From positions 43,056 to 107,055 of the forward strand of contig JAKARS010000003.1 in the NCBI GenBank assembly GCA_021828375.1: DNA of 64,000 nt, read 5' to 3'. Source of the DNA: Nitrospirota bacterium. Lineage in GTDB: Bacteria; Nitrospirota; Leptospirillia; Leptospirillales; Leptospirillaceae. The first letter of the stretch is position 1; every line of letters begins with the position of its first letter. This document shows positions 10,791-32,492 of the stretch, piece by piece. The notes under the pieces are model-generated. The model made no database searches and was not told the origin of the DNA. It saw nothing but the letters and a program-made list of their open reading frames with translations. Position numbers and translations under genes: made by a program.

Positions 10791-10842
10791 CTTATAGGTG
10801 AGTCGTGGGGTGTTTTTCCCCAGACTCCGAGGAGTCTACCTG

Positions 10843-12696
10843 ATGGCAACGCAGACGGTTGAAGAAATGGCGGCCGGTCTCTTTCGCGATGTGGCAATCC
10901 CTACCATCCATATTGGGATGGCAACGTGCGGTCTCGCCGCCGGAGCCCGCTCCATTGAGGAACTGGTCGTAAAAGAGCTGGAAAAGAGAGGGCTTGAAGC
11001 CCGAATCATTCCGACAGGCTGCATCGGAATGTGTCACAACGAACCCCTTCTGGACATCACGATGCCCGGAATGTATCGCGTCTCCTATCGGAACGTCAAG
11101 GCATTGATTATTCCCCAGATTTTCGATGCTCACTTCGTTAAGGGAGAATTCGCAAAAAAATACGCGGTCTGCCAGATTCCCATCGCAGGCCATAAGCCCT
11201 TCGAGGGCCTGCCTCTCATGGCCGAGACAGGCTTTTTCAAGGGCCAGGTGAAGATCGTCTCCAGCCGGTGTGGTCTCATCGATCCCTCAAGTATCGATGA
11301 CTACATTGCCACCGACGGCTACAAGGCCCTTAGGAAAATGTTGACTGAGATGACCCCGGACATGGTCATTGATGAAATGACAAAGTCGGGACTCAGAGGT
11401 CGCGGGGGAGGCGGCTTTTATACCGGCCTCAAGTGGAAACTGACCCGGCAATCTCCTGGGGAAGAAAAGTATGTCGTGTGCAATGCCGATGAAGGCGATC
11501 CAGGTGCCTTTATGGATCGTTCGATCCTGGAAGGGGATCCCCATAGTGTCCTCGAAGGCATGCTGGCGGCATCCTTTGCCATCGGAAATGCCAGGAAGGG
11601 GTACATCTATTGCCGTGCAGAATACCCTCTGGCAATCAAGCGCCTTCGGAAGGCCATCGACGATGCCAGGGAGCGAAACTTCCTCGGCGACAATATTCTC
11701 GGGACAGGTTTTTCCTTTGACATAACGATCAAGGAAGGTGCTGGCGCCTATGTTTGCGGAGAAGAAACAGCCCTGCTCGCCTCCCTGATGGGCGAGCGAG
11801 GAATGCCTTGGCCAAAGCCTCCCTTTCCCGCACAGAAAGGCGTCTGGGGAAAGCCGACAGTGATCAATAATGTTGAAACCCTCGGCAATGTGGGACACAT
11901 TATTCTCAACGGAGGAGACTGGTATGCCTCCTACGGCTCAGAGAAGACAAAAGGAACTAAGACCTTTGCTCTGACTGGATCTGTCAAAAACTCCGGATTG
12001 ATTGAAGTGCCGGCGGGAACTCCCTTGCGCTCCATTGTCTTTGATATCGGGGGAGGGATGCTTGAGAAGAAAATCCCGTTCAAGGCCGCCCAGCTGGGAG
12101 GCCCCTCCGGAGGATGCATTCCCGCCTCCGGGCTTGATACGCCCGTAGATTTTGAAAATGTCATTGCTGCGGGAGCGATCATGGGATCGGGGGGAATCGT
12201 CATTATGGACGAAGCCTCCTGTATTGTGGACACAGCAAAGTTCTTCCTCAAGTTTACCCAGGATGAGTCCTGCGGTGAGTGTACTCCGTGTCGTGTGGGC
12301 TCGAAAATCATGCTGGAGATCCTCACACGGATTACCGAGGGGAAAGGGCAGGAAGGCGATTTGGATGAACTCATTCGTCTTTCCATGTATGTCAAGTCAA
12401 ACTCGCTTTGCGGTCTTGGTGCGGCGGCCCCGAATCCGGTCCTCTCGACGATTCGCTATTTCAGGGAAGAGTTTGAGGCCCATATTCGCGATAAACATTG
12501 TCCGGGTACCGTCTGTGCCAATTTGATCAAGTATGTCGTCATTGAGGAGGACTGTACCACTTGCGGTCTTTGCGAGCCGGTCTGTCCGACGGGCTCAGTG
12601 ACCTGGGACAAGGGCGAGGTTGCCCATATCAATCTTGAGACCTGTATTCGCTGCAAGGCTTGTGTCGATGCCTGCAAGTTCAGAGCGATCATTTAG
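10843..12696 (+). CDS. nuoF: NADH-quinone oxidoreductase subunit F with extra Fe-S domains
   Basis: A 617-residue NADH- and FMN-binding subunit, far longer than the ~430 residues of a standard NuoF. The core has GLRGRGGGGFYTGLKW (about 183-198), NADEGDPGAFMDR and GAYVCGEETALL, with cluster N3 ligands Cys477, Cys480, Cys483 and Cys523. An N-terminal thioredoxin-like [2Fe-2S]-type domain (1-100) has only three obvious cysteines (29, 60, 64), and a C-terminal 2x[4Fe-4S] ferredoxin domain has CxxCxxCxxxC at 571-581 and 601-611. This layout resembles HndC/HoxF-like proteins. ATG 10843 follows GAGGAG at 10829-10834; the GTG at 10798 is unlikely. Confidence 0.93.
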   Translation: MATQTVEEMAAGLFRDVAIPTIHIGMATCGLAAGARSIEELVVKELEKRGLEARIIPTGCIGMCHNEPLLDITMPGMYRVSYRNVKALIIPQIFDAHFVKGEFAKKYAVCQIPIAGHKPFEGLPLMAETGFFKGQVKIVSSRCGLIDPSSIDDYIATDGYKALRKMLTEMTPDMVIDEMTKSGLRGRGGGGFYTGLKWKLTRQSPGEEKYVVCNADEGDPGAFMDRSILEGDPHSVLEGMLAASFAIGNARKGYIYCRAEYPLAIKRLRKAIDDARERNFLGDNILGTGFSFDITIKEGAGAYVCGEETALLASLMGERGMPWPKPPFPAQKGVWGKPTVINNVETLGNVGHIILNGGDWYASYGSEKTKGTKTFALTGSVKNSGLIEVPAGTPLRSIVFDIGGGMLEKKIPFKAAQLGGPSGGCIPASGLDTPVDFENVIAAGAIMGSGGIVIMDEASCIVDTAKFFLKFTQDESCGECTPCRVGSKIMLEILTRITEGKGQEGDLDELIRLSMYVKSNSLCGLGAAAPNPVLSTIRYFREEFEAHIRDKHCPGTVCANLIKYVVIEEDCTTCGLCEPVCPTGSVTWDKGEVAHINLETCIRCKACVDACKFRAII

Positions 12697-12713
12697 TGGG
12701 TGAGGCTGCTTCC

Positions 12714-15350: not shown

Positions 15351-15474
15351 CGGAATTCCTTTATCACACGTCAGAAAAGAGTTTTTTATTCCGAGGGAAG
15401 GTTGTCTTCCCGAAAAGGGATCTTGTGTGTTGAAAGCTTCCGGAGTTCCGGAAGTCAACAGGAAAGGGTAGGGT

Positions 15475-16488
15475 TTGGCCAACGACCTCATCGGAGCCCT
15501 TGTCGTCATGCTGGGCGTCCTTTTTGTAGTTTTGACGATGATTGCATACCTGACATACCTTGAGCGCAAGGTTCTTGGGTTTATGCAGGACCGCCTTGGT
15601 CCGATGGAGGTGGGACCGTGGGGTCTTCTCCAGCCGCTTGCCGATGGCATCAAGCTTCTTTCCAAGGAAGACATCATTCCAAGCGAGGCCAACCGGGCGA
15701 TCTTTCGGATTGCTCCGGTCATCTCCCTTGTTCCTGCCATCCTCGCATTTTCCGTCATTCCCTTCGGTCATGACTCCTTCTCTCTGTTGGGCGTGACTCT
15801 TCACCCCTATATTGCTGATATCAACGTTGGAATCCTTCTTATCCTGGCACTCTCCTCTATCGGAGCTTACGGAATCCTCCTGGGAGGATGGGCCTCGAAC
15901 AGCAAATACTCAATCTTGGGAGCGCTGCGTTCGGCAGCTCAGGTCATCAGCTATGAGCTGACGGCAGGCATGTCGGTGATCGGAGTTTTGATCCTCTCTG
16001 GCTCAATGTCACTGGTCAAGATAGAAGATGCCCAATCAGGCGGATTCTGGCACTGGTATATCTTCCCGCAGATTGTCGCCTTTGTTATCTATGTAATTTC
16101 CGGGATTGCCGAAACAAACCGAACCCCTTTCGATCTTCCCGAGGCGGAATCCGAGCTTGTGGCAGGTTTCTTCACCGAGTATTCGGGGATGAGATTTTCT
16201 CTTTACTATCTCGCCGAATATGCCAACATGATTATCGTCTCTTCCATTGCGACAATTCTCTTTCTCGGTGGATGGAATCCTCCCATTCCCGCGCTTGGTT
16301 TTATTCCCCCTGTCATCTGGTTCCTTCTCAAAGTTTACTTTTTCCTGTTCTTTTTCTTCTGGATTCGTGCAACGCTTCCTCGACTGCGCTATGATCAGCT
16401 CATGCGGTTTGGCTGGAAGATCATGCTTCCGGTCTCCTTTGCAAATATCATTGTGACGGGGATAGCGGCTTACTTTTTGGAGCGTTAG
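15475..16488 (+). CDS. nuoH: NADH-quinone oxidoreductase subunit H
   Basis: A 337-residue membrane subunit next to the quinone site, with about eight transmembrane helices. Conserved loops include ERKVLGFMQDRLGPMEVGP, ADGIKLLSKEDI, GIAETNRTPFDLPEAESEL and FFWIRATLPRLRYDQLM. Translation appears to start at a TTG (15475), preceded by the purine-rich AGGAAAGGGTAGGG; no better in-frame start precedes the first helix. The 124-base gap after nuoG contains no gene. Confidence 0.95.
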   Translation: MANDLIGALVVMLGVLFVVLTMIAYLTYLERKVLGFMQDRLGPMEVGPWGLLQPLADGIKLLSKEDIIPSEANRAIFRIAPVISLVPAILAFSVIPFGHDSFSLLGVTLHPYIADINVGILLILALSSIGAYGILLGGWASNSKYSILGALRSAAQVISYELTAGMSVIGVLILSGSMSLVKIEDAQSGGFWHWYIFPQIVAFVIYVISGIAETNRTPFDLPEAESELVAGFFTEYSGMRFSLYYLAEYANMIIVSSIATILFLGGWNPPIPALGFIPPVIWFLLKVYFFLFFFFWIRATLPRLRYDQLMRFGWKIMLPVSFANIIVTGIAAYFLER

Positions 16489-16546
16489 CCGAACGACAGC
16501 AAAAACATGATCAAGTTTTCGGGATATTCCAGAAGAGGAGTTGGAG

Positions 16547-17095
16547 ATGTTGAAGAAATTTCTTGACACCATATTGTTTACTGAAATAGGACAGGGCTTG
16601 AAGCTCACCCTGCGCCATATGTTCATGAAGAAGGTCACCTCCCAGTATCCGAAAGAGAAGCTTGTCCTGGCCGACGGATATCGTGGATTTATCGCTCACA
16701 GACGTTACGACGATGGCGTTGAGAGATGTGTCGGCTGTGATCTTTGCGAGGCTATTTGTCCGGCCAAAGCCATTCGTGTAGTTAGCGACATCCATCCGGA
16801 AATTCCGGATCGTCGTTACGCCAAGGAGTACACGCTCGATTTTACCCGGTGTATTTTTTGCGGATTTTGTGTTGTGGCATGTCCGGTCAACGCACTTTCC
16901 ATGACAAAGGAGTTTGCCCACTCCTCCTTTACCCGTAACGGGCTCATCTATTCCAAGGAACAGATGCTGGCGCTCGGAGATCGCGCTGGTGCTGATTCCG
17001 ACGCTTACCTCAAAGTTCGAAACATGTGGGAAGCGGAAAATTCTGGAAAAGACGAGGGACATTATCACTTCCCCCCCATCTCACTCGGAGGATAG
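16547..17095 (+). CDS. nuoI: NADH-quinone oxidoreductase subunit I
   Basis: A 182-residue ferredoxin-like subunit holding clusters N6a and N6b. The two CxxCxxCxxxCP motifs are Cys61-71 and Cys102-112. An amphipathic N-terminal helix contacts the membrane arm. ATG 16547 is preceded by GAGGAG at 16535-16540; a TTG two codons upstream is possible but has poorer spacing. nuoJ begins five bases after its stop. Confidence 0.95.
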   Translation: MLKKFLDTILFTEIGQGLKLTLRHMFMKKVTSQYPKEKLVLADGYRGFIAHRRYDDGVERCVGCDLCEAICPAKAIRVVSDIHPEIPDRRYAKEYTLDFTRCIFCGFCVVACPVNALSMTKEFAHSSFTRNGLIYSKEQMLALGDRAGADSDAYLKVRNMWEAENSGKDEGHYHFPPISLGG

Positions 17096-17099
17096 CGGC

Positions 17100-17621
17100 T
17101 TGATCCAGCAACTGCCTTTCTTTTACTTCGGCGGAATGGCGCTCGTTTGCGCCATTCTCGTCGTGACATCCCGGGTAGCGATCTATTCTGCCATGGCTCT
17201 TCTCGGTATGTTTGTTCATGTCGCAGGACTTTTTATCATCCTTGAAGCCCCATTTCTCGCCGGGGTCCAGCTCCTCGTCTACGCCGGTGCGATCCTTGTT
17301 CTCTACCTTTTCGTCGTGATGCTCCTAAACCTTCAGGGCGGCGGGGCGACGTCTCTTCAAAAGCAAACACCCTGGGCCGTTATTCTCTCTCTTATTGCCG
17401 TAGGCGAGCTTGGATATCTTCTGGTAAAGACAAATTTTTATCCGAAGCTTCCTGCGATTCCCCACCCGTCCGTTCCGACTCTCGGCAATACGGAGACAAT
17501 CGGCATGGTTCTTTATACGCAATATCTTTTTCCCTTTGAAGTGGCCTCGATCGTCCTTCTTATTGCGCTCGTGGGTGCCATTGTGATGGCCCGAGGGCGA
17601 GGACGGTTTCGTCAGGAGTAA
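17100..17621 (+). CDS. nuoJ: NADH-quinone oxidoreductase subunit J
   Basis: A 173-residue membrane-arm subunit with five predicted helices. The conserved YAGAILVLYLFVVMLLNL helix (helix 3, with the pi-bulge region involved in coupling) is clear. The TTG at 17100 is chosen: GGAGGA at 17087-17092 lies seven bases upstream and it follows the nuoI stop by four bases. An upstream frame extends into nuoI but has no family similarity there. Confidence 0.93.
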   Translation: MIQQLPFFYFGGMALVCAILVVTSRVAIYSAMALLGMFVHVAGLFIILEAPFLAGVQLLVYAGAILVLYLFVVMLLNLQGGGATSLQKQTPWAVILSLIAVGELGYLLVKTNFYPKLPAIPHPSVPTLGNTETIGMVLYTQYLFPFEVASIVLLIALVGAIVMARGRGRFRQE

Positions 17622-17680
17622 AGGAGATCCTGTTTCTCCTCGTTCGAACGACTTAATCGCAAGTCTATCCTGGAGTGTCG

Positions 17681-17983
17681 ATGGTTCCTCTGTCGTGGTA
17701 TGTTGCCCTGTCCGCAATGATGTTCGTGACAGGACTTGTCGGAGTCCTCATCCGGCGAAATATTGTGGTCGTTCTTCTCTGCATCGAAATCATGCTCAAT
17801 GCCGTGAACATCAATTTCGTTGCCTTTAGCGACTACCTGCATCTGATCGACGGGCAGATCTTCGTCTTTTTCGTGATCACCGTTGCGGCGGCCGAAGTTG
17901 CGATTGGACTTGGGATCATCATTTCCCTCTTCCGTTTGCGAGAGTCGGTTAACATGGATGACTACAACCTGCTGAAGCTCTGA
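17681..17983 (+). CDS. nuoK: NADH-quinone oxidoreductase subunit K
   Basis: A 100-residue, three-helix antiporter-like subunit, the usual family length. Conserved acidic residues sit in IEIMLNAVNINF and AAAEVAIGLGI, needed for proton translocation in characterised homologs. ATG 17681 is preceded by TGGAG; a GTG two codons earlier (17675) overlaps that site and is less likely. Confidence 0.93.
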   Translation: MVPLSWYVALSAMMFVTGLVGVLIRRNIVVVLLCIEIMLNAVNINFVAFSDYLHLIDGQIFVFFVITVAAAEVAIGLGIIISLFRLRESVNMDDYNLLKL

Positions 17984-18005
17984 CCTGCCGAGGGAGTTCC
18001 TGTAA

Positions 18006-19937
18006 ATGATGCCGATTCTTCTGATCCCGCTCCTGCCCCTTCTTGGATTCCTGATCGTGGGAATCTTTTGGCCCTTCTTCAAGGGGAAAGGGCACCTTGT
18101 GGCCCTTCCTCTGGTCACCCTCTCTTGGGCCATTGCCACGCTAGAGTTCTTCAAGAGCTTTTCGGCCCCTCCAAGCCTGACTCTTGTCTACGACTGGATC
18201 CGGTCCGGACATCTCGATGTCGGGATCTCTCTTCAGTATGATCATCTTGCCGCTGTCATGCTCTTCATGGTGACAACCGTTGCGATGCTGGTCCATCTTT
18301 ATACCATTGGCTACATGCATGGTGACTCGGGATATGATCGCTTTTTTGCCTACATCTCCTTGTTTACCTTCTCGATGATCATGCTGGTCCTTTCCGACAA
18401 TCTCGTGGAAATGTTCATCTTCTGGGAGGCGGTAGGTCTTTGTTCCTATCTTCTTATTGTTCACTGGTATGAGCGCCGACCGTCTTGGCTTGCCGCAAAC
18501 AAGGCCTTTATCATGAACCGCGTCGGGGACTTCGGGTTCCTTTTGGGAATTTTTCTCGCCTATACGGTCTTTGGATCTGTTCGATTCGCCGAGATATTTC
18601 CGGCCATCGGATCACACCTCCATCAATCGGTCAATCTTGCGGCGGTCTTTCGCGGAAGCTGGAATGTTCCGGTTCTTGATGTCATCGCCCTTTTGCTCTT
18701 TCTTGGCGCTGTGGGCAAGTCGGCCCAGATTCCACTTCATCCATGGCTTCCCGATGCCATGGAGGGTCCAACCCCCATTTCCGCCCTCATCCATGCGGCA
18801 ACGATGGTCACCGCCGGTGTCTTTATGATTGCCCGGATGAATCCCCTTTATAATGCAGCTCCCTTCGCTCTCCATGTCGTCGCCTGGACCGGGGCGATCA
18901 CGGCCATCGTGGCAGCGACGATCGCGCTGACCCAGCCGGATATCAAAAAGATTGTGGCCTACTCGACCATGAGTCAGCTCGGATACATGGTCATGGTCTG
19001 TGGTCTTGGTGGTTATGGGGCAGGGATCTTCCATCTCCTCACCCACGGCGCCTTTAAGGCCCTTCTCTTCTTGGGAGCTGGCTCTGTCATTCACTCATTG
19101 TCCGGGGAGCAGGATGTCTTTCGGATGGGAGGTCTTCGTAAGTATGTCGGGCTGACATTTGCCACCATGCTGATTGGATCTTTGGCACTTTCCGGAATTC
19201 CCCCATTTGCAGGCTATTACAGCAAGGATCTCATCCTTGTAACGGCTTATCAGCAGGGCCCGCTCGGTCAGATGCTCTGGCTTATCGGCGTTTTGACCGC
19301 TGTCCTGACGGCCTTCTACAGCTTCAGACTTCTCTTCCTTGTCTTCGGTGGAAAGGAGCGATTCCACTCCGAGGGCCAAGGACATGCGGTTCATCCCCAT
19401 GAGAGCCCTTTCACGATGACAATTCCTCTATTGGTCCTTTCCATTGCCACTGTTTTTGCAGGGTGGGCCGGAGAGCATTACGGTATTCTCCAATACCTCT
19501 CCCAGGAATTGCCGATTCCCCCCGTCAAAGAGGCCGCAGGCGGTTTTTCTGAAAATGCGCTCAAGGGTCTTTCTGTGGTCGGTGCCCTTTTCGGGATCCT
19601 CATTGCCTGGATCCTCTACGGAAAAGAGTCGTCCATCCCTGCGGCCCTCGCCAGGAATCTTTCTTTCTTTTACAAGATATCCTTACACAAGTGGTATTTT
19701 GACGAGTTTTATGATGCCGTTTTTGTTCGTCCGTCCTTTGCCATCGGTCGCCTTTTCTGGCAGGAATTGGACAAGGGTGTGATTGATGGGATTGTCAATG
19801 GCGTGGCTTACTTTTTCCGGAACAGCGGGGGAAGTCTGCGACGTCTTCAATCCGGCCAGATTCAGAACTATGCCATGGCCATGGCTATTGGTGCCTTTGG
19901 TCTCGTGGCGTTCTATCTTTTTTTTAACAGACTGTAG
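18006..19937 (+). CDS. nuoL: NADH-quinone oxidoreductase subunit L
   Basis: A 643-residue distal antiporter-like subunit with about 15-16 transmembrane helices and the long lateral helix at the C-terminus. Proton-path motifs are present: FWEAVGLCSYLLI with the key Glu, SAQIPLHPWLPDAMEGPTP with broken-helix Lys region, HAATMVTAGVF and STMSQLGYM. Two ATG codons occur in tandem at 18006 and 18009. It starts 22 bases after nuoK. Confidence 0.96.
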   Translation: MMPILLIPLLPLLGFLIVGIFWPFFKGKGHLVALPLVTLSWAIATLEFFKSFSAPPSLTLVYDWIRSGHLDVGISLQYDHLAAVMLFMVTTVAMLVHLYTIGYMHGDSGYDRFFAYISLFTFSMIMLVLSDNLVEMFIFWEAVGLCSYLLIVHWYERRPSWLAANKAFIMNRVGDFGFLLGIFLAYTVFGSVRFAEIFPAIGSHLHQSVNLAAVFRGSWNVPVLDVIALLLFLGAVGKSAQIPLHPWLPDAMEGPTPISALIHAATMVTAGVFMIARMNPLYNAAPFALHVVAWTGAITAIVAATIALTQPDIKKIVAYSTMSQLGYMVMVCGLGGYGAGIFHLLTHGAFKALLFLGAGSVIHSLSGEQDVFRMGGLRKYVGLTFATMLIGSLALSGIPPFAGYYSKDLILVTAYQQGPLGQMLWLIGVLTAVLTAFYSFRLLFLVFGGKERFHSEGQGHAVHPHESPFTMTIPLLVLSIATVFAGWAGEHYGILQYLSQELPIPPVKEAAGGFSENALKGLSVVGALFGILIAWILYGKESSIPAALARNLSFFYKISLHKWYFDEFYDAVFVRPSFAIGRLFWQELDKGVIDGIVNGVAYFFRNSGGSLRRLQSGQIQNYAMAMAIGAFGLVAFYLFFNRL

Positions 19938-20039
19938 CTCCTGACCTTAAAGTAAGTCGCATTTGAGGGAAGGACCTTGTTCCCGGTCGTCCGGGGGCTG
20001 TCCCTTTTTCATGAACAACATCGAAGAGGATGAATCCTG

Positions 20040-21542
20040 ATGACATTTTTGTCCGTGCCTATTTTGACCTTCCTGATCTTCTTTCCGGTGGTCGCCTCCC
20101 TTCTTATCCTTCCGTTCTATAAAAAGCCTGGCACGGAGGGAGTGGTCAAGTGGACGGCACTGGGAATCACGGTCATCGAGTTTCTTGTTTCTCTTTCCCT
20201 TCTGATCGGAAACAATCCTCATCTCTACCAGATGCAGTTTGTCGAGAATCATTTGTGGATTCCATTTGGGAACATTCACTATGCCTTGGGAATCGATGGA
20301 ATCAGCCTTGTCCTCGTCATCATGACAACCTTCCTGATGCCGATGACGATCCTCACTTCCTGGGTGGGCATCTCCAAAAATCTCCCTCTTTTCATGATCA
20401 ATCTCCTTGTCCTTGAAGGGGCGATGATCGGAGTCTTCTGCGCCACCGACTTCGTTCTCTTCTATGTTTTTTGGGAAGCCATGCTTATCCCCATGTACCT
20501 GATCATCGGTGTCTGGGGGGGGCCGAATCGAATCTATGCGGCCATCAAGTTCTTTCTCTACACTTTGGCTGGATCTTTACTTCTTCTTGTTGCCATCATT
20601 GCCCTTTACTTTGTCGGGGGACACACGTTCGATATTACTCGCCTTTCAGGGCAACACTATGGCATGAATTTCCAGATCCTGGCTTTTCTGGCAATGTTTG
20701 TCGCCTTTGCTGTCAAAATCCCCATGTTTCCCTTCCATACATGGCTTCCGGATGCTCACGTGGAGGCTCCGACCGCCGGCTCTGTCATTCTTGCCTCGAT
20801 CATGCTTAAGATGGGGGCTTACGGATTTCTTCGCTTTTCTCTGCCGATGTTTCCCGATGCCTCGCATTTTTTTGCTCCCATGATCCTCACGCTTTCTGTG
20901 ATCGCCATTATCTGGGGAGCTTTTATGGCCCTCGCGCAGGAAGACATGAAGAAGCTTATCGCCTATTCATCGGTGAGCCATATGGGAGTGGTGACTCTTG
21001 GTATTTTTGTGGCCAATACTCAGGGTATTGAAGGGGCTCTCATGCAGATGCTCAACCATGGCATTACTACTGGAGCGCTCTTTCTCTGCATCGGAGTCCT
21101 TTATGACCGCTCCCACTCTCGTCTCCTCTCCGAGTACGGGGGATTGGCAAAACAGATGCCAGTCTACTCCACACTTTTGGTGATTTTTGCCCTTTCTTCC
21201 CTGGCTCTTCCCGGGACAAACTCCTTTGTGGGAGAGTTTCTTGTCCTTATCGGATCCTTTAAGACCCATGCCGTGGTCTCCTCCTTGGCAACGACCGGGG
21301 TTATCCTCTCGGCCATGTATTTGCTGTATCTCCTTTCCCGGGTTGTCTGGGGAGTCTATACCCCCAAGAGCTACGCCATGCCGGATCTCCGTGCCTATGA
21401 GTGGGGATCGCTTATTCCGCTGGTTGTCATGGTGATTGTCATCGGACTTCTTCCAAACCCGGTACTTTCTCTGTTTCATCAAAGTGTTGCCCATCTGGTG
21501 GGGCAGATGCAGCCCGCCCCCCTCGCATTGCTTCACAATTAG
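20040..21542 (+). CDS. nuoM: NADH-quinone oxidoreductase subunit M
   Basis: A 500-residue antiporter-like subunit, about 14 transmembrane helices. Motifs include FYVFWEAMLIPMYLIIG with the essential Glu, FPFHTWLPDAHVEAPTAGS, and IAYSSVSHMGVV. GAGGATG-type purines precede the ATG. The 102-base gap after nuoL contains a short CCCGG/CCGGG hairpin with no useful T-tract, so it is probably not a full stop. Confidence 0.96.
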   Translation: MTFLSVPILTFLIFFPVVASLLILPFYKKPGTEGVVKWTALGITVIEFLVSLSLLIGNNPHLYQMQFVENHLWIPFGNIHYALGIDGISLVLVIMTTFLMPMTILTSWVGISKNLPLFMINLLVLEGAMIGVFCATDFVLFYVFWEAMLIPMYLIIGVWGGPNRIYAAIKFFLYTLAGSLLLLVAIIALYFVGGHTFDITRLSGQHYGMNFQILAFLAMFVAFAVKIPMFPFHTWLPDAHVEAPTAGSVILASIMLKMGAYGFLRFSLPMFPDASHFFAPMILTLSVIAIIWGAFMALAQEDMKKLIAYSSVSHMGVVTLGIFVANTQGIEGALMQMLNHGITTGALFLCIGVLYDRSHSRLLSEYGGLAKQMPVYSTLLVIFALSSLALPGTNSFVGEFLVLIGSFKTHAVVSSLATTGVILSAMYLLYLLSRVVWGVYTPKSYAMPDLRAYEWGSLIPLVVMVIVIGLLPNPVLSLFHQSVAHLVGQMQPAPLALLHN

Positions 21543-21593
21543 TCGCTGACGGGTCTTTTCTCAGGTACTCAACCGTTTGAAGGAGCTTTTTTG

Positions 21594-23039
21594 ATGAACT
21601 TCTCCCCGGTCAACATCATGGGAACGATGCCAGAGATCTATCTGACGGTCCTAGGATGCCTCCTCTTTTTGATGGAGCCCTTTGTTCCTGCCAAGAAGCG
21701 CTCTCTTCTCGGGGTTTTTGCCATCTTCTCTCTTGTTTTTGCCATGATTGCCACCTTTGGCCTAAACGGAAAAGGATTGCCCCTCTATCAGGGCCTCTAT
21801 ATCGTCGATCCCTTTTCAAACTTCTTTAAGACGGTGATTTACCTGGGAACGATCATCACGATCCTTTTCTCCCTTCCCTACCTTGAGAAGGAAGAAATTC
21901 ACCTTGGTGAGTATTACGGCTTTCTCCTTTTTGCGGCAGTGGGGATGATGATCATGGTCTCGGCGGGAGACCTCATCACCCTCTTTTTGGGAATTGAGCT
22001 CATGTCACTGTGTCTCTATGTGTTGGTTGGGCTCAAAAGAAATTCCAACCGTTCAGTGGAGGCTTCCTTCAAGTATTTTCTCCTGGGGGCCTTTGCCGCA
22101 GCAATTTTTCTTTATGGGATCTCTCTTCTCTATGGAGCATCAGGGACCGAAACTCTGAGCGGTCTCGCCCAGTTTGTTGCCAACCCCGGTGCTCTTCGTC
22201 CGATGGTTCTGGCGGGAATGATTCTGACGATGGTGGGATTTGCCTTCAAAGTTTCAGCGGCGCCTTTTCACATGTGGACTCCCGACGTCTACGAGGGGGC
22301 TCCGACCGTTGTCACCGGCTTCATGGCATCGGTGGGCAAGGTCGCGGCTTTTGGCGTCTTCCTTCGGGTCTTTTGGGTGGCCTTTTCTGCCAATCGTGAC
22401 CACTGGTCCCTCCTGATCATCACCGCGGCAATCCTTTCCATGATTGTCGGCAACATTGTGGCGTTGGTCCAGACCAACATCAAGAGGATGCTGGCCTATT
22501 CCTCCATTGGCCATGCGGGCTATGCCGTCATCGCTCTCCTCAATCCCAGCCGGGACAGCCTCTTTGCCCTGATGTTCTATATGTTCGCCTATCTCTTCAT
22601 GACCCTCGGAGCCTTTGGCATCATCCTGATCCTTCGGCGGAAGGGGATCGAGGCCGAAGAGATCTCTGACTTTGTCGGACTCAACAAAAAGAATCCCATG
22701 GCCGCGTTCCTGATGCTGATCTTCATGTTTTCCCTGGCCGGTATTCCACCTTTTGGTGGCTTCCTGGCAAAATTTTATGTCTTCATGGCGGCCGTTCACG
22801 CTGGGTACACCTGGCTGGCTGTCGTCGGTGTGCTCCTTAGTGCCGTTGGAGCCTATTACTACATCCGGGTGGTCATGGCGATGTATATGAAGGATCCGGT
22901 TGAGCCCGTCGAGTTTACTCCCAATCGCATGGAAGGAATGGCCCTGTTTGTGACGGCGGGGATGACAGTCCTTCTCGGGATTTTTCCGCTTCCGTTTGTT
23001 CACTATATTGAGACTTCTCTTGCGATTCTCGTTCCCTGA
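21594..23039 (+). CDS. nuoN: NADH-quinone oxidoreductase subunit N
   Basis: A 481-residue antiporter-like subunit and last gene of the nuo operon. Diagnostic segments are FLGIELMSLCLYVLVG, FKVSAAPFHMWTPDVYEGAP, LAYSSIGHAGYAV and FSLAGIPPFGGFLAKF. AAGGAG at 21580-21585 is properly spaced for the ATG at 21594; the TTG one codon upstream is an alternative. The stop codon is immediately followed by a strong inverted repeat. Confidence 0.96.
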   Translation: MNFSPVNIMGTMPEIYLTVLGCLLFLMEPFVPAKKRSLLGVFAIFSLVFAMIATFGLNGKGLPLYQGLYIVDPFSNFFKTVIYLGTIITILFSLPYLEKEEIHLGEYYGFLLFAAVGMMIMVSAGDLITLFLGIELMSLCLYVLVGLKRNSNRSVEASFKYFLLGAFAAAIFLYGISLLYGASGTETLSGLAQFVANPGALRPMVLAGMILTMVGFAFKVSAAPFHMWTPDVYEGAPTVVTGFMASVGKVAAFGVFLRVFWVAFSANRDHWSLLIITAAILSMIVGNIVALVQTNIKRMLAYSSIGHAGYAVIALLNPSRDSLFALMFYMFAYLFMTLGAFGIILILRRKGIEAEEISDFVGLNKKNPMAAFLMLIFMFSLAGIPPFGGFLAKFYVFMAAVHAGYTWLAVVGVLLSAVGAYYYIRVVMAMYMKDPVEPVEFTPNRMEGMALFVTAGMTVLLGIFPLPFVHYIETSLAILVP

Positions 23040-23821: not shown

Positions 23822-23899
23822 GCGCCTGTAGCTCAGTCCGGATAGAGCATCGGATTCCGGTTCCGAGTGTCGGGAGTTCAAATCTCTCCAGGCGCGCCA
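23822..23899 (+). tRNA. tRNA-Arg (anticodon CCG)
   Basis: A complete cloverleaf: acceptor GCGCCTG paired with CAGGCGC, a D-arm with GCTCAGTCCGGATAGAGC, anticodon stem TCGGA/TCCGA around loop TTCCGGT (anticodon CCG, decoding CGG), and a T-arm with loop TTCAAAT. Discriminator G23896 is followed by an encoded CCA (23897-23899). The preceding ~55 bases are T/A-rich and may hold its promoter, but no clear boxes stand out. Confidence 0.95.
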
Positions 23900-24273: not shown

Positions 24274-27200
24274 CTAAAGGCGTTTTTCGATCCTTTGTCT
24301 GAGACTCTGGGCAAACTGACGGGCCCAGGAGCTGTTGAACTGGTGAATATGCTCTCCGGCCACCACAAGCCATTGGTCATAGGATCCTGACGGAGAGGTT
24401 TCGTTTCCGTGAATGCGTCCAACAGGAATTTCCAGGAGAGATCGGACGTTGGTTTGTGCCAGTCTTCGAAAGGATTCGGGGAGCTCCGGATCCAGCAAGG
24501 ATCGGGTCCTTAAGGTTGAGATTTTCAGGAGGGTCTCTCTGGAGTATGCCTCTTCAAACGGCGACACAAGGGTCTTTCCCTGATGTCCCGATGACGCAAG
24601 GATGACTCCTCTCTGAGAGTGTGGCGGCAAGGAAAGATAAAAGACTCCGAGGACTCCCGGAAGGGTCTGGAGAAGATCGATCTCGGGACAGGCGTCCTGT
24701 GAGGGTTCTATGGGAAGCTCGGCAAGGGTCGCTTCCATATAACGGCCGACTGTTTCAATCTCGGATTCAAGCTCCATCCGGATGTGATCTTCGATGCGTT
24801 GGTCGGCGATGGCCAGGATTTTGGTGCGATCCCTGTCGGGAACGAGCCCCCGATGGATCTGGCTGGCGAGAAGCTTGCGGTAGAGGTTCATTCCGGCGAC
24901 GAGAAGGCTGTTCGAGACACCGGAGAGACAATGGATTTGTCCCACAATTCTTGCGCGGGAGAGGATCGTCTCCCGTTCTGTCCGGGGCGAGAGCAGAAAC
25001 CTGAGGTGCTCGCACTGACGCAGGGCTAAAGTCCGGCGTCCATCCTCCCCCAGAGGCTCCAAAATGTTGCGGGATTCGGGCAGGCTGTCAAGCTTCCCGT
25101 AGAATGCCTCCACGAATCGTTCGACAGCCGGGTCGATGGACTCTGCGTACTTTTCGAGGAGTGCCTTCGCCAGGTCGTCATAGGCGTCGATTTCCCGGGA
25201 GGAGGGTCCCGTATCGGGATCGCCCGCGAGGTGCCACCACTTTTCCCGGGCCAACTTCTTTTCCTTGATGTGGCACAGGGCCCGGTCGGCCTCCCGGAGA
25301 AGCGTCTCGGGGTCGAGGGCGTCGGAGGGATAGAAGGCCATTCCCAGGCTCAGCCCCATATGGGTCACCCGTCCGGGCAGGATCTCAAAAGGGGTCTCGA
25401 CGGTTTGTCGAAGCCGGTCGAGAAAGGCATGAAATTCGGGAGTGCTGGGATTGACGATGTCTTCGATCACGAGGGCAAACTCGTCGCCCCCTAGCCGTGC
25501 GATGAAATCATGGCTCCGGATGGTGTCGGAAAGTCTTCGGGCCAGCTCCTGCAAAAGGGTGTCGCCGGCGGCATGGCCAAAGGTGTCATTGACGGGCTTG
25601 AAGTCGTCCAGATCGAGGATCCCCACGATGAAACCGCCCCCTTGGCGATTCTTGCGGGCCACGAGCCGCAGAAGGTGGTCGTCGAGGGCCGCGCGGTTGA
25701 GAAGTCCCGTCAGGGGGTCGTGCTGGACCGAAAAGGTGAGGCGGCTGTTTTGCGCCAGAAGGTCTCGGAATTCGGTGATGTCATTCTGGACTCCGACGAA
25801 GTGTGTGATGGCTCCCTCGGCGTTCCTGACGGGAGAGAGGGTGAGCAGATTCCAGAAGGTCGAGCCGTCCTTTCTGTAGTTCAGGATCTGTCCCCGATAG
25901 TTCTGTCCAGAGTCGAGGGCCTGCCGGATTTCGTCCACGGTCTCCCGATCACTGCCCTCCCCCTGGAGGAATCGGCAGTCCCGCCCGACGATCTCATCGT
26001 GGCGGTAACCCGTAATGGTCGTGAAGGCTTCATTGGTGTAGATGATCCGGCGCTGGCTGTCGGTGATGATGACCCCCTCATGGACGGCCACAAGAGCCCG
26101 GGCAAGAAGGGTCTCCCCCTCCCGGGCCTTCTTTCTGAGGGTGATGTCGGAGATGGTCCAGAGGGTATCGAATCCTTCCTGCTCAAAAGGAACCCCAGAC
26201 ATCTCAAGCCACCTCGGTTCTCCGGTTTCGGGAAGGTCGAGAGGGATCTCCAGCGTGAGACGTTCATGGTGTCGGGAGGGGACGAGAATGCGTTCCTCGA
26301 GTCCGGGAGGTTCGGCCGGATTTCCCAGGATCTCGAGAATCTCCCGTCCTTCGAAGGGGCCGAAACGGTGGAGGATCTCTTCCATTCGGCTGTTGGAAAA
26401 ACGGACAACCGATCCTTCGGTCAGGATGATGCCCAAGGAGGAGGCGTCAAGGATGGCGGCATTGAGGGCACTGGTTCGCCTCTCGACCGACTTGAGATCG
26501 AGCCGGTCGAGACCGCGGGAGAGGCTCTGGGCCAACTCCTCCAGGACACTTCGGACCGGCTCCTCGAACTCCTGGCGTTCTCCGTAGTAAAGGGCAAAGA
26601 GCCCCCAGAGGCGTCCCTTATGGAAAACAGGGAGGACGGCGAGGCTTTCAATGCCGTACCTCCGGGCAGGCTCCTTCCAGGGGGCCGGGCCGGGCGGGGG
26701 GGAGAATGACGCTTCGAAGACGGCTCGGCCTTCCCGGAAGGCCCGGCCAGTCGGTCCCTGTCCGTTGGGGGAGTCGAGCTGGACGGAAATGCGGGCTTCC
26801 CGAAGAAAGTCGGTCGCTCCCGAGGCGGCCAGGAATTCGATCTCGCCGTGAGGGTCGGGTTGACCGACCCAGGAGAGCACGACTCCGGATTGGGTGATGG
26901 CGAGATCGCAAAGATCCATGAGAAGCCGCCTCTCGTCCTCCACCGTCGACAGGATGACATTGGCCCGGGCATGGAGCGCATTGACCGCGGCGAGTCGCTC
27001 GAGGGCCCGGGCATGAAGGTGCCGATCGGTGGTGTCGTAGATGGTGGCCACGAGGATCTCTTCGCCCCCGACTCTGGCCGTTGTGGCAAAGAAATCAGCC
27101 CAAAGGGCTTCCCCTGTCTTTTTTCGTCCACGGACATCGGTCACCAGAACCCGTCCCTCATGAAAAACTGCCGGGTAGAGGCGCCTTCCGATCCGAAGGA

Positions 27201-28368
27201 ACTCTTCATCGTCGAGGTAGAGGCATCTGACCGATTGTCCCTCGAGCTCCTCGGGGCGCTCGTATCCGAGCATCTCGAGCATGTGGGCGTTCACCGTGAC
27301 GATGGTCCGGTCCCGGACCAGGAGAATTCCGGAGAGTGCGTTGTCGAGAAGGGCCTTTTTGAGGGCCAGGGCCTCCTGGCGGCTTCGGAGGATCTGGAGT
27401 CGTTCGAGCCCCCGGGAGAGGTCCCGGGAAAGCTCCGAGAGAACTTCCTGAAGAGGAGGATCGAAGGCCTTTGGGGCGAGGTGGTAGAGGGTGAGGACGA
27501 GACGCTCTTCCGCGCGTCCGGAGATGGGGATGGCCGCCAGGCTCTTGAATCCGAAGCGGCCGATGGCCTCCTGAACCTTGCGGGCAAAGGGCGAAGGATC
27601 TTCCGCCAGGGTTTCGTCGAACGCGAGGTGGAAGACCGGCTCCCCGCTCTTCCACGCCAGGTAGGGGGCGCTGGTGATGCCGGTGATCTCCGGACTCGAG
27701 GGAATCTGGACCGAGTCGAGCCATCCGGTCTCGCCGTTTGCGGCAAGAATGTGAAAATACCCGTTCTCCCCGGGTCGCCCAATCCAGGCCAGGGCGATGC
27801 CTTCAAGGGAAACAGCCAGACGGCAGAGGGCGTCATAGAGGGAGGGCTCGTCAGGGGCGGAGAGAAGGGTCCTGTTTGCCTCAATCAGGAGCCGGTTATA
27901 CTCGGACAGGGTCTGTCGATCCCGATCGGCGGATTTTCGGCGGCTGATGTCTCGGGCGCAATGGAGAGCATAGGGGAGGCCGTTTTGGATGAAGGGACGG
28001 GAGCGGATCTCGACGGGGACAACCGTCCCATCACGTTTTTGATGCCAGCTTTCGACGGTTAAAATCGTGTCGGGAGGGAGCGCAAGGATCTCTCGCATAT
28101 GCCGGATCAGGTCGTCTCCGTCCCATTCCGGTTGCCACAGAGAGATCGGGCGGTGGAGGAGCTCCTCCACACGATAGCCCAGTGAGTCGGCAAGGGTGGG
28201 GAGGGAAAAGATCAGAAGACCTTTTTCGTCGGTGATGTAGGGGGCATCGGTTCCCATCTCGAGAAGAAGAGGGAGCCAGTCCTGAATGTCTCTCTCGTCT
28301 TTCGAAGAACCGGTCGAGTCGCTCTCCATGGAGGGGGCCTCCAGGGTGGGGTGCAGGAGAAATCTCAT
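24274..28368 (-). CDS. Multi-sensor diguanylate cyclase: PAS/GAF/LOV-GGDEF-globin
   Basis: A 1364-residue cytoplasmic signalling protein with no membrane helix. Approximate order: PAS (25-148), GAF (165-330), PAS (335-450), GAF (460-625), PAS (635-748), LOV-type PAS (755-868), GGDEF (880-1045), globin-like domain (1060-1180) and a C-terminal GAF-like region. The LOV segment has GRDCRFLQ with the photo-adduct Cys798, plus NYRKDG, FWNLL and HFVGVQ flavin-contact residues. GGDEF is intact (960-964) with an RxxD I-site (951-954), so it should make c-di-GMP and be product-inhibited. RIVGQIHCLSGV has a His1146 placed like the heme-proximal His of globin-coupled sensors. ATG 28368 lies six bases after a -10 box; an internal ATG at 28329 with GGAGG upstream is an alternative. 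Confidence 0.88.
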   Translation of the reverse strand: MRFLLHPTLEAPSMESDSTGSSKDERDIQDWLPLLLEMGTDAPYITDEKGLLIFSLPTLADSLGYRVEELLHRPISLWQPEWDGDDLIRHMREILALPPDTILTVESWHQKRDGTVVPVEIRSRPFIQNGLPYALHCARDISRRKSADRDRQTLSEYNRLLIEANRTLLSAPDEPSLYDALCRLAVSLEGIALAWIGRPGENGYFHILAANGETGWLDSVQIPSSPEITGITSAPYLAWKSGEPVFHLAFDETLAEDPSPFARKVQEAIGRFGFKSLAAIPISGRAEERLVLTLYHLAPKAFDPPLQEVLSELSRDLSRGLERLQILRSRQEALALKKALLDNALSGILLVRDRTIVTVNAHMLEMLGYERPEELEGQSVRCLYLDDEEFLRIGRRLYPAVFHEGRVLVTDVRGRKKTGEALWADFFATTARVGGEEILVATIYDTTDRHLHARALERLAAVNALHARANVILSTVEDERRLLMDLCDLAITQSGVVLSWVGQPDPHGEIEFLAASGATDFLREARISVQLDSPNGQGPTGRAFREGRAVFEASFSPPPGPAPWKEPARRYGIESLAVLPVFHKGRLWGLFALYYGERQEFEEPVRSVLEELAQSLSRGLDRLDLKSVERRTSALNAAILDASSLGIILTEGSVVRFSNSRMEEILHRFGPFEGREILEILGNPAEPPGLEERILVPSRHHERLTLEIPLDLPETGEPRWLEMSGVPFEQEGFDTLWTISDITLRKKAREGETLLARALVAVHEGVIITDSQRRIIYTNEAFTTITGYRHDEIVGRDCRFLQGEGSDRETVDEIRQALDSGQNYRGQILNYRKDGSTFWNLLTLSPVRNAEGAITHFVGVQNDITEFRDLLAQNSRLTFSVQHDPLTGLLNRAALDDHLLRLVARKNRQGGGFIVGILDLDDFKPVNDTFGHAAGDTLLQELARRLSDTIRSHDFIARLGGDEFALVIEDIVNPSTPEFHAFLDRLRQTVETPFEILPGRVTHMGLSLGMAFYPSDALDPETLLREADRALCHIKEKKLAREKWWHLAGDPDTGPSSREIDAYDDLAKALLEKYAESIDPAVERFVEAFYGKLDSLPESRNILEPLGEDGRRTLALRQCEHLRFLLSPRTERETILSRARIVGQIHCLSGVSNSLLVAGMNLYRKLLASQIHRGLVPDRDRTKILAIADQRIEDHIRMELESEIETVGRYMEATLAELPIEPSQDACPEIDLLQTLPGVLGVFYLSLPPHSQRGVILASSGHQGKTLVSPFEEAYSRETLLKISTLRTRSLLDPELPESFRRLAQTNVRSLLEIPVGRIHGNETSPSGSYDQWLVVAGEHIHQFNSSWARQFAQSLRQRIEKRL

Positions 28369-28374
28369 CACCGG

Positions 28375-28527: not shown

Positions 28528-28557
28528 TTGAAATCGCTTCGATCCTCCTCGTAGAAT
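28528..28557 (+). promoter_or_regulatory. Promoter of the cupin/GGDEF-EAL pair
   Basis: TTGAAA (28528-28533), 18-base spacer, TAGAAT (28552-28557). Start of transcription would fall near 28564, giving a leader of about 34 bases before the ATG at 28598. It argues against the upstream ATG at 28556, which overlaps the -10 box. Confidence 0.6.
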
Positions 28558-28597
28558 GAAAAAGGTTAATGTTAAAAAATTTTTCAGGGGATTGTTG

Positions 28598-29251
28598 ATG
28601 CTCTTTCATGCCGATCGTTCCCAGCGCATTGTTGTCCTTCCGGAGAACCGGTCCTGGATCGAGCGGAAAGAGGGCGGGTCCCTTTGCCCGCTCGAGAGCC
28701 TCCCCGGGGTGGTGGAGTCGTCCTTTGTGAGGCTTCCCCCGGGGAGCTCCTTGGATCCGGACTCTCGGGACCTCGAGATTTTCGTTCTTGACGGTCGACT
28801 TGAGGTCGGGGGCCGGGTGTGGCCGACCGGAAGCTACCTGCGCATTGCCGGGGAGTCGGGACTTTCGGTTCTTGCCGGCGAACCGTCGCTCCTCTTTCTG
28901 AAGGCGGGGACCTTCCCCGAAGAGGACCGGAAAAGTGCCGGCCTTGAGACGGCGGGAGTGCGCTTTTCCCCCGGACTGGTTCCCGGCCTCTCCGTTCTTC
29001 CCCTCTTCTCGGGAGGAACCGCCAATACTGCCCTGGTCCGGTGGGAGCCGGGAACGGTCTTTCAGCCCCATCGGCACTTCGGCGGGGAGGAGATTCTGGT
29101 GATCTCGGGAACCTTCGAGGATGAGCACGGTTCCTATCCCGCGGGGAGCTGGTACCGGGCACCCCACATGAGCCGCCACCATCCCTTCTCACGGGAGGGG
29201 TGCCTGATCTTCGTCAAGACGGGTCATCTGCAGGACGCCAGCGCCGCGTGA
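28598..29251 (+). CDS. ChrR-like bicupin protein
   Basis: A 217-residue protein with two cupin folds. The C-terminal half matches the cupin domain of ChrR-type anti-sigma factors: EPGTVFQPHRHFGGEEILV, FEDEHGSYPAGSW and RHHPFSREGC, with His and Glu residues suited to metal binding. The N-terminal half (about 25-105) has the same strand pattern but lacks the His set. No zinc anti-sigma domain and no sigma factor gene are adjacent, so it is not a simple ChrR. ATG 28598 has CAGGGG seven bases upstream and fits the promoter at 28528. It sits 28 bases before a GGDEF-EAL gene, probably in one transcript. Function is unassigned. Confidence 0.8.
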   Translation: MLFHADRSQRIVVLPENRSWIERKEGGSLCPLESLPGVVESSFVRLPPGSSLDPDSRDLEIFVLDGRLEVGGRVWPTGSYLRIAGESGLSVLAGEPSLLFLKAGTFPEEDRKSAGLETAGVRFSPGLVPGLSVLPLFSGGTANTALVRWEPGTVFQPHRHFGGEEILVISGTFEDEHGSYPAGSWYRAPHMSRHHPFSREGCLIFVKTGHLQDASAA

Positions 29252-29279
29252 CGGAGACGAAACGGAAGGGGAGGTTTTG

Positions 29280-32200
29280 GTGAACCCCGAGATGACCGAT
29301 CGCGAAGAGATAACTCGGGCCGTTCTGCATTCCAACCGTCTTCTGGTCCGCTCGGTGGGCGCCCCTCTCGATGCCACCTTCGAGTCCCTCTGCTCGATTC
29401 TTGTGGAGGAGCTTGGGGCCCGCCTGGTGGTCATCAGCCGTCTCGACCTCGAAGACCTCTCCCTGCGTCCGGTGGCGGCCGAAGGGGCGGCCCGGGAGTA
29501 TTTTTCGGGCATCGTCCTCTCCGCCTCCAGCGACTCCCCCATGGGGCAGGGGCCGGCAGGACAGGTCATGCGGTCGGGTTCTCCCATGGTCGCCAAGCTT
29601 CCCGAGTCGCTCCCTCCCATGATGGGGCTCCACGATCGGGTGCGTCGCTTTGACCTGGGGGGAAGCGCCCTGGCGCCCATCTATACCTCGGAGGGCCTTT
29701 GGGGCCTTATCTCCGTCTATCGAAGCTCCCATGCCTCCTTCAGCCCCGACATTCTTCCCCTCCTCCAGAGCTTTGCCCGGGACATTGGCGACTTCCTTGA
29801 CCGACGCCGGGAGTTCCAGGAGCTCTCCCTCCGCCGCTCCTTCCAGGAGGCAATCGAGTCCTTTCAGGCTCGACTTCTTCGGGGCCTTTCGGTGGGGGAG
29901 ATCCGGTCGGCCCTTCTCGAATGCGTCGTTGACCGGATGGGTTTTCCGGTGGCCTTTCTTGTGGAGGAAATTCAGGAAGGTGTTCCGTCCCGGACCCCGC
30001 ATCTCGATGGCTACCGCCTCTCTCACGGGGCCCTCCCCGGGATCCGGGAGGACTTTTCGGACGAGCTGGTGAGCAAGGTTTTCTCTCAGGCCCTGCTTGA
30101 GTCTCCTCTTCCCGGAATTCCTGCGGGGGCGACCTTCCTTTTTGCCCCTTCGGACTCCCCCTTGTGGTCGCCCATGCTCCGGAAGGTTCTGGCGGATCTC
30201 TCCCTGGGGGGCGGCCTCCTTTTTTCCCTTGAAACACTGGAAGATCCCTCCAAAACGGTCTCTCTTCTGACTGGAGCCCGATCCTCCCATCCCCCCTCCC
30301 AGGAGACCGTGGAGCTGCTCTCCCAGCTTGTCAATGGAGCCCGAATGGCAATGGCCCAGAGCCGCGACCGGAGCCGGCTGGATCGCTATGCCAGATTCTA
30401 TCGGGCCATCGGCGCAATCGGGAAGCTTCTGGCACGCCATCCGGCCCCCCAGGAGCTGTACGATGGAGTCTGTGAGGCCATCACAGAGGCGACGGGGATC
30501 GACCTGGCCTTTGTCTCGCTCGTGGAGCCGGGGGACAAGGTCCGGGCGGTCTCGGCCCGGGGAAGAGCCAGAGATTTCATAGACGGGGCCGTTTTTTCCG
30601 TCGACCCCCAGGATCCGGGGCGCTGCCTGATCCACAGCCGGACATTGGGAACGAGTGATGTGGTCGAGTTTCCCCTTCTGGAGGAGTGGTTGTGTTCCGA
30701 TGCGGTGCGCGAGGTGGCCCGTCCCTGGCATCTCCGGAACACCCTGACGGTTTCATTTGCCAAGGATGGCCACCGCATTGGGATCCTTGGACTGATCTCC
30801 CGGGAGCAGGGGTTCTTTGACAGGACCCTTGTGGGGCTCCTCTCCGGCATTGCCCAGGACATCTCCTTTTCCCTGGAATTTCTCGATCGCCAGGAGAGGC
30901 TCAAGGTCTTGGCCTCCATCGATCCCCTGACCGACCTGCCCAACCGCACGGCCTTTGTGGGGGAGCTCGGTCGCCTGACATCGAGCCAACCGGATCTCGC
31001 CCTTTCTGTGGGGATTCTCGACATCGACGGCTTCAAAAACTGGAACGATGCCTTTGGCCATATCGAAGGGGACCGACTTCTCCAGTCAATGGCCCGGGAG
31101 CTTCCGGGGATCCTTCCGGAAGGGGCCTTCCTGGCCCGGATGGGGGGCGACGAATTCGGGATCTGCCTTTCCTCTCCCGGATCCATCGATCGCCGGGGCG
31201 TGGAGGAGATCTCCCGGAAGATCCTCGGCCTCGGTCTTCGCCTCGACGGGGGACACAATCTGGTCACCGTCAGTCTGGGGTGGGCGATCTTTCCCGATGA
31301 TGCGCAGACTCCTGCGGAGCTTTTGGCCCGGGCCGACGAGTCGCTCTTTGCCGCCAAGTCCTCGGGAAGGAACCGTTCGACTCTCTTTGGCCCGGAGATT
31401 GCCCAGGCCATGGTCTCCCGGGTGGAGACCCGTCGCTCCTTTCCCCTGGCCCTTGAACGCGGGGAGATCCTCTTTTGGCTCCAGCCACAGGTGGATGTGC
31501 GGGGTGGCCGGATCGAAGGGGTCGAGATGCTGGTAAGGTGGAAACGGGAAGAGGGGATGGTGTCCCCGGGGATCTTCATTCCCGAGGTTGAGCGGGAGCC
31601 GGCCCTGATCAGAAAGCTCGGATGCCATGCCCTGAGCGAAGCCTGCCGGTTGAGGCGCGAGCTCTCTGCCCCGCTTCCCCCTCTCCGGATCTCCCTGAAC
31701 ATTGGGGCCGGCCATTTCCTTCATCCGGCCTTTCTCGACGATGTCGATGCCGCCCTCCGCGGGGAGACGGGGACGGGACTCGTCGTGGAAGTGACCGAGG
31801 GAGCCTCTCTCGAAAGCCCCGAGCGGACCGGTCGGATTCGCGAGGAGCTTCGGCGCCGGGGGCTTGAGCTCTCTCTCGACGACTTCGGGACCGGCTTCTC
31901 CTCCCTTCATCATGTGGCCGACCTGTTGCCGGATGAAATCAAGCTCGACGGGAGCTTCATGCGAAGCTTCCGGATGCGGACCAACGCCTTTGCCGTGGTC
32001 GGTTCGACCCTTCTTCTGACGGATCTCTCCGGGAGCCGCCTTGTGGGCGAGGGGATCGAGCATCGTTCCGATGTCGAGCTCTGGCTTCGGATGGGAGGAT
32101 CCCTGGTTCAGGGGTACTTCTTTGCCAAGCCCATGTCCCTCGAGGACTTCAAGAGCTTTTATGCGCGCCCGCTTCCCGAGATTGCCCTCCCTCCGGTCTA

Positions 32201-32492
32201 TCCGGTGGAGGAGCTTCCCTTTCTCGAATACGCCTTTCGAACGGCGGGAGAGGCGTCCGGGGATTCCGGAGGGCTTCCGGGCTTGTCCTGTCCCCTCGAC
32301 AGCTGGTTCGAGGTTCGAGGCGTTCATTATTACCACCTTCCCTCCTGGCACGCGGCCCGGGAAGCTCATCAGGCCTTCCATCGGGGAGGGGGATTGAAGG
32401 GAGCGGCGGAAGTGGCCCCTCTTGAAGCTCCCCTCCAGGCTCTCAGGGAAGAGATGGATGCCTATTTGCAGGCCCTTCCCCTTCGTCCCTAG
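29280..32492 (+). CDS. GAF-GGDEF-EAL cyclic-di-GMP turnover protein
   Basis: A 1070-residue soluble protein. An N-terminal GAF (about 20-175), a second divergent sensor region (180-360), a GAF (365-535), GGDEF (540-705) and EAL (715-960) are followed by ~110 extra residues. GGDEF is canonical at 622-626 but the RxxD inhibitory site is missing (PEGA in that position). The EAL signature reads EML (749-751), yet the catalytic set looks complete: Asn in SLNIG, Glu in VVEVTE, DDFGTG (867-872), Lys888, Glu in VGEGIE and Gln944. It could therefore make or degrade c-di-GMP. GTG 29280 is preceded by GGGGAGG at 29268-29274. Confidence 0.9.
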   Translation: MNPEMTDREEITRAVLHSNRLLVRSVGAPLDATFESLCSILVEELGARLVVISRLDLEDLSLRPVAAEGAAREYFSGIVLSASSDSPMGQGPAGQVMRSGSPMVAKLPESLPPMMGLHDRVRRFDLGGSALAPIYTSEGLWGLISVYRSSHASFSPDILPLLQSFARDIGDFLDRRREFQELSLRRSFQEAIESFQARLLRGLSVGEIRSALLECVVDRMGFPVAFLVEEIQEGVPSRTPHLDGYRLSHGALPGIREDFSDELVSKVFSQALLESPLPGIPAGATFLFAPSDSPLWSPMLRKVLADLSLGGGLLFSLETLEDPSKTVSLLTGARSSHPPSQETVELLSQLVNGARMAMAQSRDRSRLDRYARFYRAIGAIGKLLARHPAPQELYDGVCEAITEATGIDLAFVSLVEPGDKVRAVSARGRARDFIDGAVFSVDPQDPGRCLIHSRTLGTSDVVEFPLLEEWLCSDAVREVARPWHLRNTLTVSFAKDGHRIGILGLISREQGFFDRTLVGLLSGIAQDISFSLEFLDRQERLKVLASIDPLTDLPNRTAFVGELGRLTSSQPDLALSVGILDIDGFKNWNDAFGHIEGDRLLQSMARELPGILPEGAFLARMGGDEFGICLSSPGSIDRRGVEEISRKILGLGLRLDGGHNLVTVSLGWAIFPDDAQTPAELLARADESLFAAKSSGRNRSTLFGPEIAQAMVSRVETRRSFPLALERGEILFWLQPQVDVRGGRIEGVEMLVRWKREEGMVSPGIFIPEVEREPALIRKLGCHALSEACRLRRELSAPLPPLRISLNIGAGHFLHPAFLDDVDAALRGETGTGLVVEVTEGASLESPERTGRIREELRRRGLELSLDDFGTGFSSLHHVADLLPDEIKLDGSFMRSFRMRTNAFAVVGSTLLLTDLSGSRLVGEGIEHRSDVELWLRMGGSLVQGYFFAKPMSLEDFKSFYARPLPEIALPPVYPVEELPFLEYAFRTAGEASGDSGGLPGLSCPLDSWFEVRGVHYYHLPSWHAAREAHQAFHRGGGLKGAAEVAPLEAPLQALREEMDAYLQALPLRP

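Follow-up and report, generated by a model that had tools for sequence, protein, structure and literature searches.

A probable LOV-regulated diguanylate cyclase with a protoglobin domain downstream of GGDEF in a member of the Leptospirillaceae

A gene on the minus strand of the window (the whole stretch of 64,000 nucleotides analysed) is predicted to encode a multi-input diguanylate cyclase with a functional LOV blue-light receptor as its immediate N-terminal controller, a reading given a probability of roughly 0.7. A functional LOV domain attached to an intact GGDEF domain is supported alike by sequence, fold, pocket residues, selection and clade-wide conservation of the cysteine, and the sequence and structural models make it very probable that the product is a diguanylate cyclase regulated by a photoactive LOV domain.

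The first-pass annotation had placed a LOV-containing diguanylate cyclase at 24274-28368, and these coordinates were right: the gene is a single open frame on the minus strand with its stop codon at 24274-24276. A plus-strand gene was ruled out, the plus-strand translation of 24274-28368 being interrupted by stops. The frame can begin at a GTG at 28371 (1365 aa) or an ATG at 28368 (1364 aa), and the ATG at residue 14 offers a possible later start. Pfam and family-built profiles give the domain order PAS-GAF-PAS-GAF-PAS-LOV-GGDEF-protoglobin-GAF-like, in which LOV comes sixth among the sensor modules, as first read, after PAS-GAF-PAS-GAF-PAS. The original reading as a LOV cyclase was thus supported but incomplete, since the protoglobin and the further GAF-like domain downstream of GGDEF had gone unmentioned. 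The features, in window coordinates, are:

24274-28371, minus strand: entire gene for the multi-sensor LOV diguanylate cyclase, with ortholog alignments starting at about residue 1-26
27937-28272, minus strand: PAS 1, from profile matches
27409-27915, minus strand: GAF 1, from profile matches
27019-27384, minus strand: PAS 2, from profile matches
26497-26997, minus strand: GAF 2, from profile matches
26134-26484, minus strand: PAS 3, from profile matches
25768-26109, minus strand: LOV domain, residues 754-867, from Pfam PAS_9, PDB LOV matches and AF2/Foldseek
25975-25977, minus strand: Cys798 (TGC), predicted to form the adduct, aligned to AsLOV2 C450
25786-25788, minus strand: Gln861 (CAG), aligned to AsLOV2 Q513
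25711-25782, minus strand: helical linker between LOV and GGDEF, 24 residues, D(IT) to (HDP)L
25258-25734, minus strand: GGDEF domain, with GGDEF at residues 960-964 and the I-site RSHD at 951-954
24802-25218, minus strand: protoglobin domain, residues 1051-1189, with proximal His1146 and with Tyr1090 near position B10
24931-24933, minus strand: His1146, predicted to be the proximal heme ligand and unchanged in 24 of 24 family members
24280-24783, minus strand: C-terminal GAF-like domain, from profiles and model

By sequence and fold, the sixth module is a true LOV domain. When the domain was searched against the PDB with phmmer, LOV photoreceptors came out on top (best E about 1e-30), the leading matches being bacterial LOV histidine kinases, CagFbFP, phototropins, aureochromes and YtvA; a chance motif match was rejected on the strength of these values. 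An HMM comparison, proposed earlier as a check, returned Pfam PAS_9 and partial matches to the NCBIfam models YtvA_fam and BluLightHisKinLov. The motifs by which the domain was originally recognised are all present, namely GRDCRFLQ at residues 795-802, which includes Cys798, and the flavin-contact motifs NYRKDG at 830, FWNLL at 838 and FVGVQ at 857. Of 20 flavin-pocket positions in AsLOV2, 14 are identical here, including C450, R451, Q454, R467, N482, N492 and Q513, compared with only 0-2 in PAS 1, PAS 2 and PAS 3. The flavin-contact set is made up of R799, R815, N830, N840 and Q861, equivalent to AsLOV2 R451, R467, N482, N492 and Q513. For an AlphaFold (AF2) model of LOV-linker-GGDEF (mean pLDDT 88.6) the top Foldseek match in the PDB was 8c05, dark-state MsLadC (E 1.2e-25), and the LOV part of the model superposed on CagFbFP with an rmsd of 0.7 Å over 104 columns; phmmer, AF2 and Foldseek agree on a PAS fold of the LOV subtype.

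The departure from the LOV signature is, as the first reading had it, Asn to Asp beside the Cys. PpSB1-LOV, the photoactivity of which is well established, reads YQDCRFLQ, also with Asp. The change looks harmless at the level of sequence, and the idea that Asp beside the Cys is disabling was rejected because PpSB1-LOV carries the same GxDCRFLQ.

In the cyclase domain the GGDEF motif and the RxxD I-site are intact, and the LOV domain is joined directly to it, as in LadC proteins. Light regulation has been reported for homologous arrangements in four LadC proteins (MsLadC, AoLadC, SfLadC and DpLadC; PMC10396304) and for an M. loti fragment comprising LOV and GGDEF (PMC9098866). The protein is probably dimeric, and in the dark the LOV domain would hold oxidized FMN. 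Blue light would produce a flavin-C4a adduct with Cys798, with N5 protonated and Gln861 rearranged, and this change would travel along the linker, a helix of 24 residues, to the GGDEF dimer, shift its register and alter c-di-GMP synthesis. The gain would be set by the PAS/GAF modules on the upstream side and, on the downstream side, by the heme globin with His1146, responding to O2 or some other gas.

By the LadC definition the linker has 24 residues in all 10 members of the clade to which the protein belongs and 21 in nearly all other units, and QN(S/D/E)xL is retained in every member of the linker alignment. LadC linkers comprise 21- and 35-residue classes (PMC10396304), and linker register sets activity in these proteins (PMC10396304, PMC12805367). 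The present protein departs from the LadC layout in its 24-residue linker and in the extra sensors on both sides of LOV-GGDEF (PMC10396304). Coupling is uncertain, because a linker of 24 fits neither light-regulated LadC class, and the sign of the response is unreadable from sequence, because a shift of three residues is not a whole heptad; activation by light is slightly the likelier direction. A tentative variant of the main reading is that the protein is photoactive and light represses or only mildly tunes the cyclase, the dominant input coming from the globin or from the PAS/GAF modules at the N terminus. It would suit a linker three residues longer than in the 21-residue class, the three PAS and two GAF domains before LOV and the globin and GAF-like domains after GGDEF, and the M. 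loti fragment is in fact light-repressed (PMC9098866), but light activates each of the four LadC proteins that have been measured (PMC10396304).

Four orthologs share a common locus and neighbours, in genomes G000 (the window), G006, G004 and G002. The G006 ortholog is the same gene as in the record Nitrospirae bacterium UBA4572, and the UBA4572 ortholog was the only return of a single scan of genome contigs. The LOV domain is under strong purifying selection, being among the most constrained domains of the protein with a dN/dS of 0.06-0.13. Against G004 it is the best-conserved domain (91% identity, dN/dS 0.058), compared with 82% and 0.105 for GGDEF and 46% identity for the first PAS, and against G006 it ties with GGDEF, both at 95% identity. 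The G006 protein, which is the closest ortholog (90% identical), keeps the Cys and has Gln replaced by Leu (FVGVL; CTG for CAG) and Phe by Leu (GRDCRLLQ). LOV domains that lack the Gln can still signal: YF1 and NmPAL tolerate Leu at this position, and a LOV-GGDEF protein that naturally lacks the Gln responds to light (PMC9098866). In the G002 ortholog (L069) the frame is broken inside GGDEF, giving slightly overlapping frames of 996 aa and 844 aa that reflect either a pseudogene or an assembly error; its LOV part is still under constraint.

In the 21 genomes analysed from this taxonomic family, LOV and LOV-like domains cluster on GGDEF proteins, and a LOV domain with the Cys, both Asn and the Gln occurs in 20 of them, the exception being G010, which is 70% complete. 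In a tree of 50 LOV/PAS-GGDEF units the protein falls inside a starred clade of 10 (97/95) in which the Cys is present in 10/10 and the Gln in 9/10, with a mean LOV identity of 63%. The Cys label requires 4 changes on this tree as against 17 for shuffled labels. A Cys to Leu change is found in four of the five members of a GAF-LOV-GGDEF-EAL subclade, where the pocket is otherwise largely kept. Among these four is a GAF-PAS-GAF-LOV-GGDEF-EAL paralog encoded in the same genome as the target (G000:C47; L007:3471-8261), which reads GKNLRLLQ, with Leu for Cys and the flavin pocket otherwise retained, a possible natural Cys-less LOV. Some other family paralogs are plainly degenerate, e.g. GETPYILV and GREATRIL. 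Two tandem PAS-LOV-like proteins, L113 (G011:C57) and L114 (G006:C70), read GQNCRFMN and DKNCRFLN, respectively, and no GGDEF was found in them. A search of the 21 family genomes for BLUF receptors as an alternative light input found none, and photolyase is encoded in 10 of the 21, including this one.

The photolyase of this genome may be counted in favour of a light input. Against it are counted the Cys to Leu paralog in the same genome, which shows that LOV-type domains of this family can be retained when the adduct is lost, the replacement of Gln and of Phe by Leu in the closest ortholog, and the fact that some habitats of likely relatives are dark mines. An unlikely reading is that the LOV-type domain, though it binds flavin, serves chiefly to sense redox state or oxygen, with the Cys incidental and light not the physiological cue. 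Such a role would accord with the replacement of Cys by Leu in an otherwise intact pocket in the paralog from the same genome and in three others, with the oxygen theme suggested by a globin on the same protein, and with the response of natural Cys-less LOV-like proteins to chemical or photoreduction (PMC4682037); the Cys and Gln counts in the target clade and the strong constraint on the domain argue against it. That the domain is a decaying relic, no longer binding flavin or coupling to the cyclase, is very improbable, given that the flavin-contact motifs examined are kept, dN/dS is low and LOV is better conserved than GGDEF relative to G004, even with degenerate paralogs in the family and the Gln gone from the closest ortholog.

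Besides the photoreceptor reading, the region after GGDEF points to a possible second input. The protoglobin domain was recognised by Pfam (3.9e-7), and globin profile matches in the PDB included 7o0i, the RsbR heme sensor (3e-9), as well as HemAT and DosC. His1146 aligns with the proximal His of HemAT, and a model of the globin region (pLDDT 87.9) matches the AfGcHK and DosC globins at about 2-2.5 Å, with a GAF-like fold following the globin. The protoglobin fold and conserved proximal His are those of a globin-coupled sensor, but in such sensors the globin is N-terminal to the output, whereas here it is C-terminal to GGDEF. A heme gas-sensor globin domain is probable on this evidence, and a single GGDEF domain may be gated by light and gas alike. 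A search of 148 genomes from the phylum found the globin-GAF module in this family only.

An EAL domain follows the globin-GAF module in the G004 and G002 orthologs and is lacking in the target and G006. As the next outgroup (G005, G013) carries EAL, it was most likely lost in the target and G006. A remnant just downstream of the stop was rejected, the gene's frame on the minus strand containing no recognisable EAL there and soon running into stops, followed by a tRNA, and the EAL seems to have been lost rather than shifted out of frame. There is an even chance that all of this holds as one picture: a cyclase gated from both sides, by LOV at the N-terminal side and by a heme globin at the C-terminal side, in iron-oxidizing chemolithotrophs in which LOV blue-light sensing is near-universal, with the EAL dropped to leave a pure cyclase and with sister paralogs lacking the photochemical Cys.

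Two genes beside the cyclase gene are syntenic in four species:

28556-29251, plus strand: ChrR-type double cupin, divergent neighbour
29277-32492, plus strand: GAF-GAF-GGDEF-EAL protein

ChrR cupins are known from singlet-oxygen responses, and a light-stress link for the cupin beside the LOV cyclase gene is conceivable. A further GAF-GAF-GAF-GGDEF protein is encoded at 61471-63708 on the plus strand, which brings the c-di-GMP genes in the window to three (24274-28371, 29277-32492 and 61471-63708). Just downstream of the LOV cyclase gene is a tRNA-Arg (CCG; 23822-23899, plus strand), and a complex I (nuo) cluster (8667-23039, plus strand) adjoins it. The G+C content, 58.1%, is close to the 57.5% of Leptospirillum Group III (PMC7231039), and the host is probably an iron-oxidizing Leptospirillum relative.

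LOV-GGDEF proteins are of an already known kind: GGDEF or GGDEF-EAL outputs are present on about 18% of LOV proteins in bacteria, and some LOV proteins are counted in this phylum (PMC4844311). The literature searched contained no mention of LOV domains together with Leptospirillum, and titles and abstracts on Leptospirillum and blue light held nothing relevant. Also undescribed in the literature searched were a LOV-GGDEF protein with a C-terminal globin, a 24-residue linker class, and a near-universal family LOV domain from which the photochemical Cys has been lost repeatedly. Bioleaching and acid drainage both depend in part on biofilm growth, so that a light input could be put to the test and to use. 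Furthermore, the family offers a natural LOV series on related GGDEF proteins (Cys with Gln, Cys with Gln replaced by Leu, and Cys replaced by Leu), so that the interconversion of light receptor and flavin redox sensor would become directly testable.

Among known systems, PpSB1-LOV is a short LOV protein without an output domain and in this is unlike the cyclase described here. It shares with it the Asp before the Cys, NYRKDG and FWN, and has GIQ (3sw1, 5j3w). The globin-coupled cyclases DosC/DgcO likewise combine GGDEF and a protoglobin with its proximal His in one polypeptide, but in DosC the globin precedes GGDEF, whereas here it follows and a LOV domain is also present. RmcA of the chemotroph Pseudomonas aeruginosa is similarly a multi-PAS c-di-GMP enzyme in which a LOV-like PAS is tied to light and biofilm, although that domain, PASd, has no Cys and acts through the phosphodiesterase (PMC8846402). 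The MsLadC/LadC family (8c05; PMC10396304, PMC12805367) shares a LOV domain directly N-terminal to GGDEF, a helical linker and the adduct Cys, and the present protein differs in having five more sensor domains upstream, a globin and a GAF-like domain downstream, and a linker of 24 rather than 21 or 35 residues.
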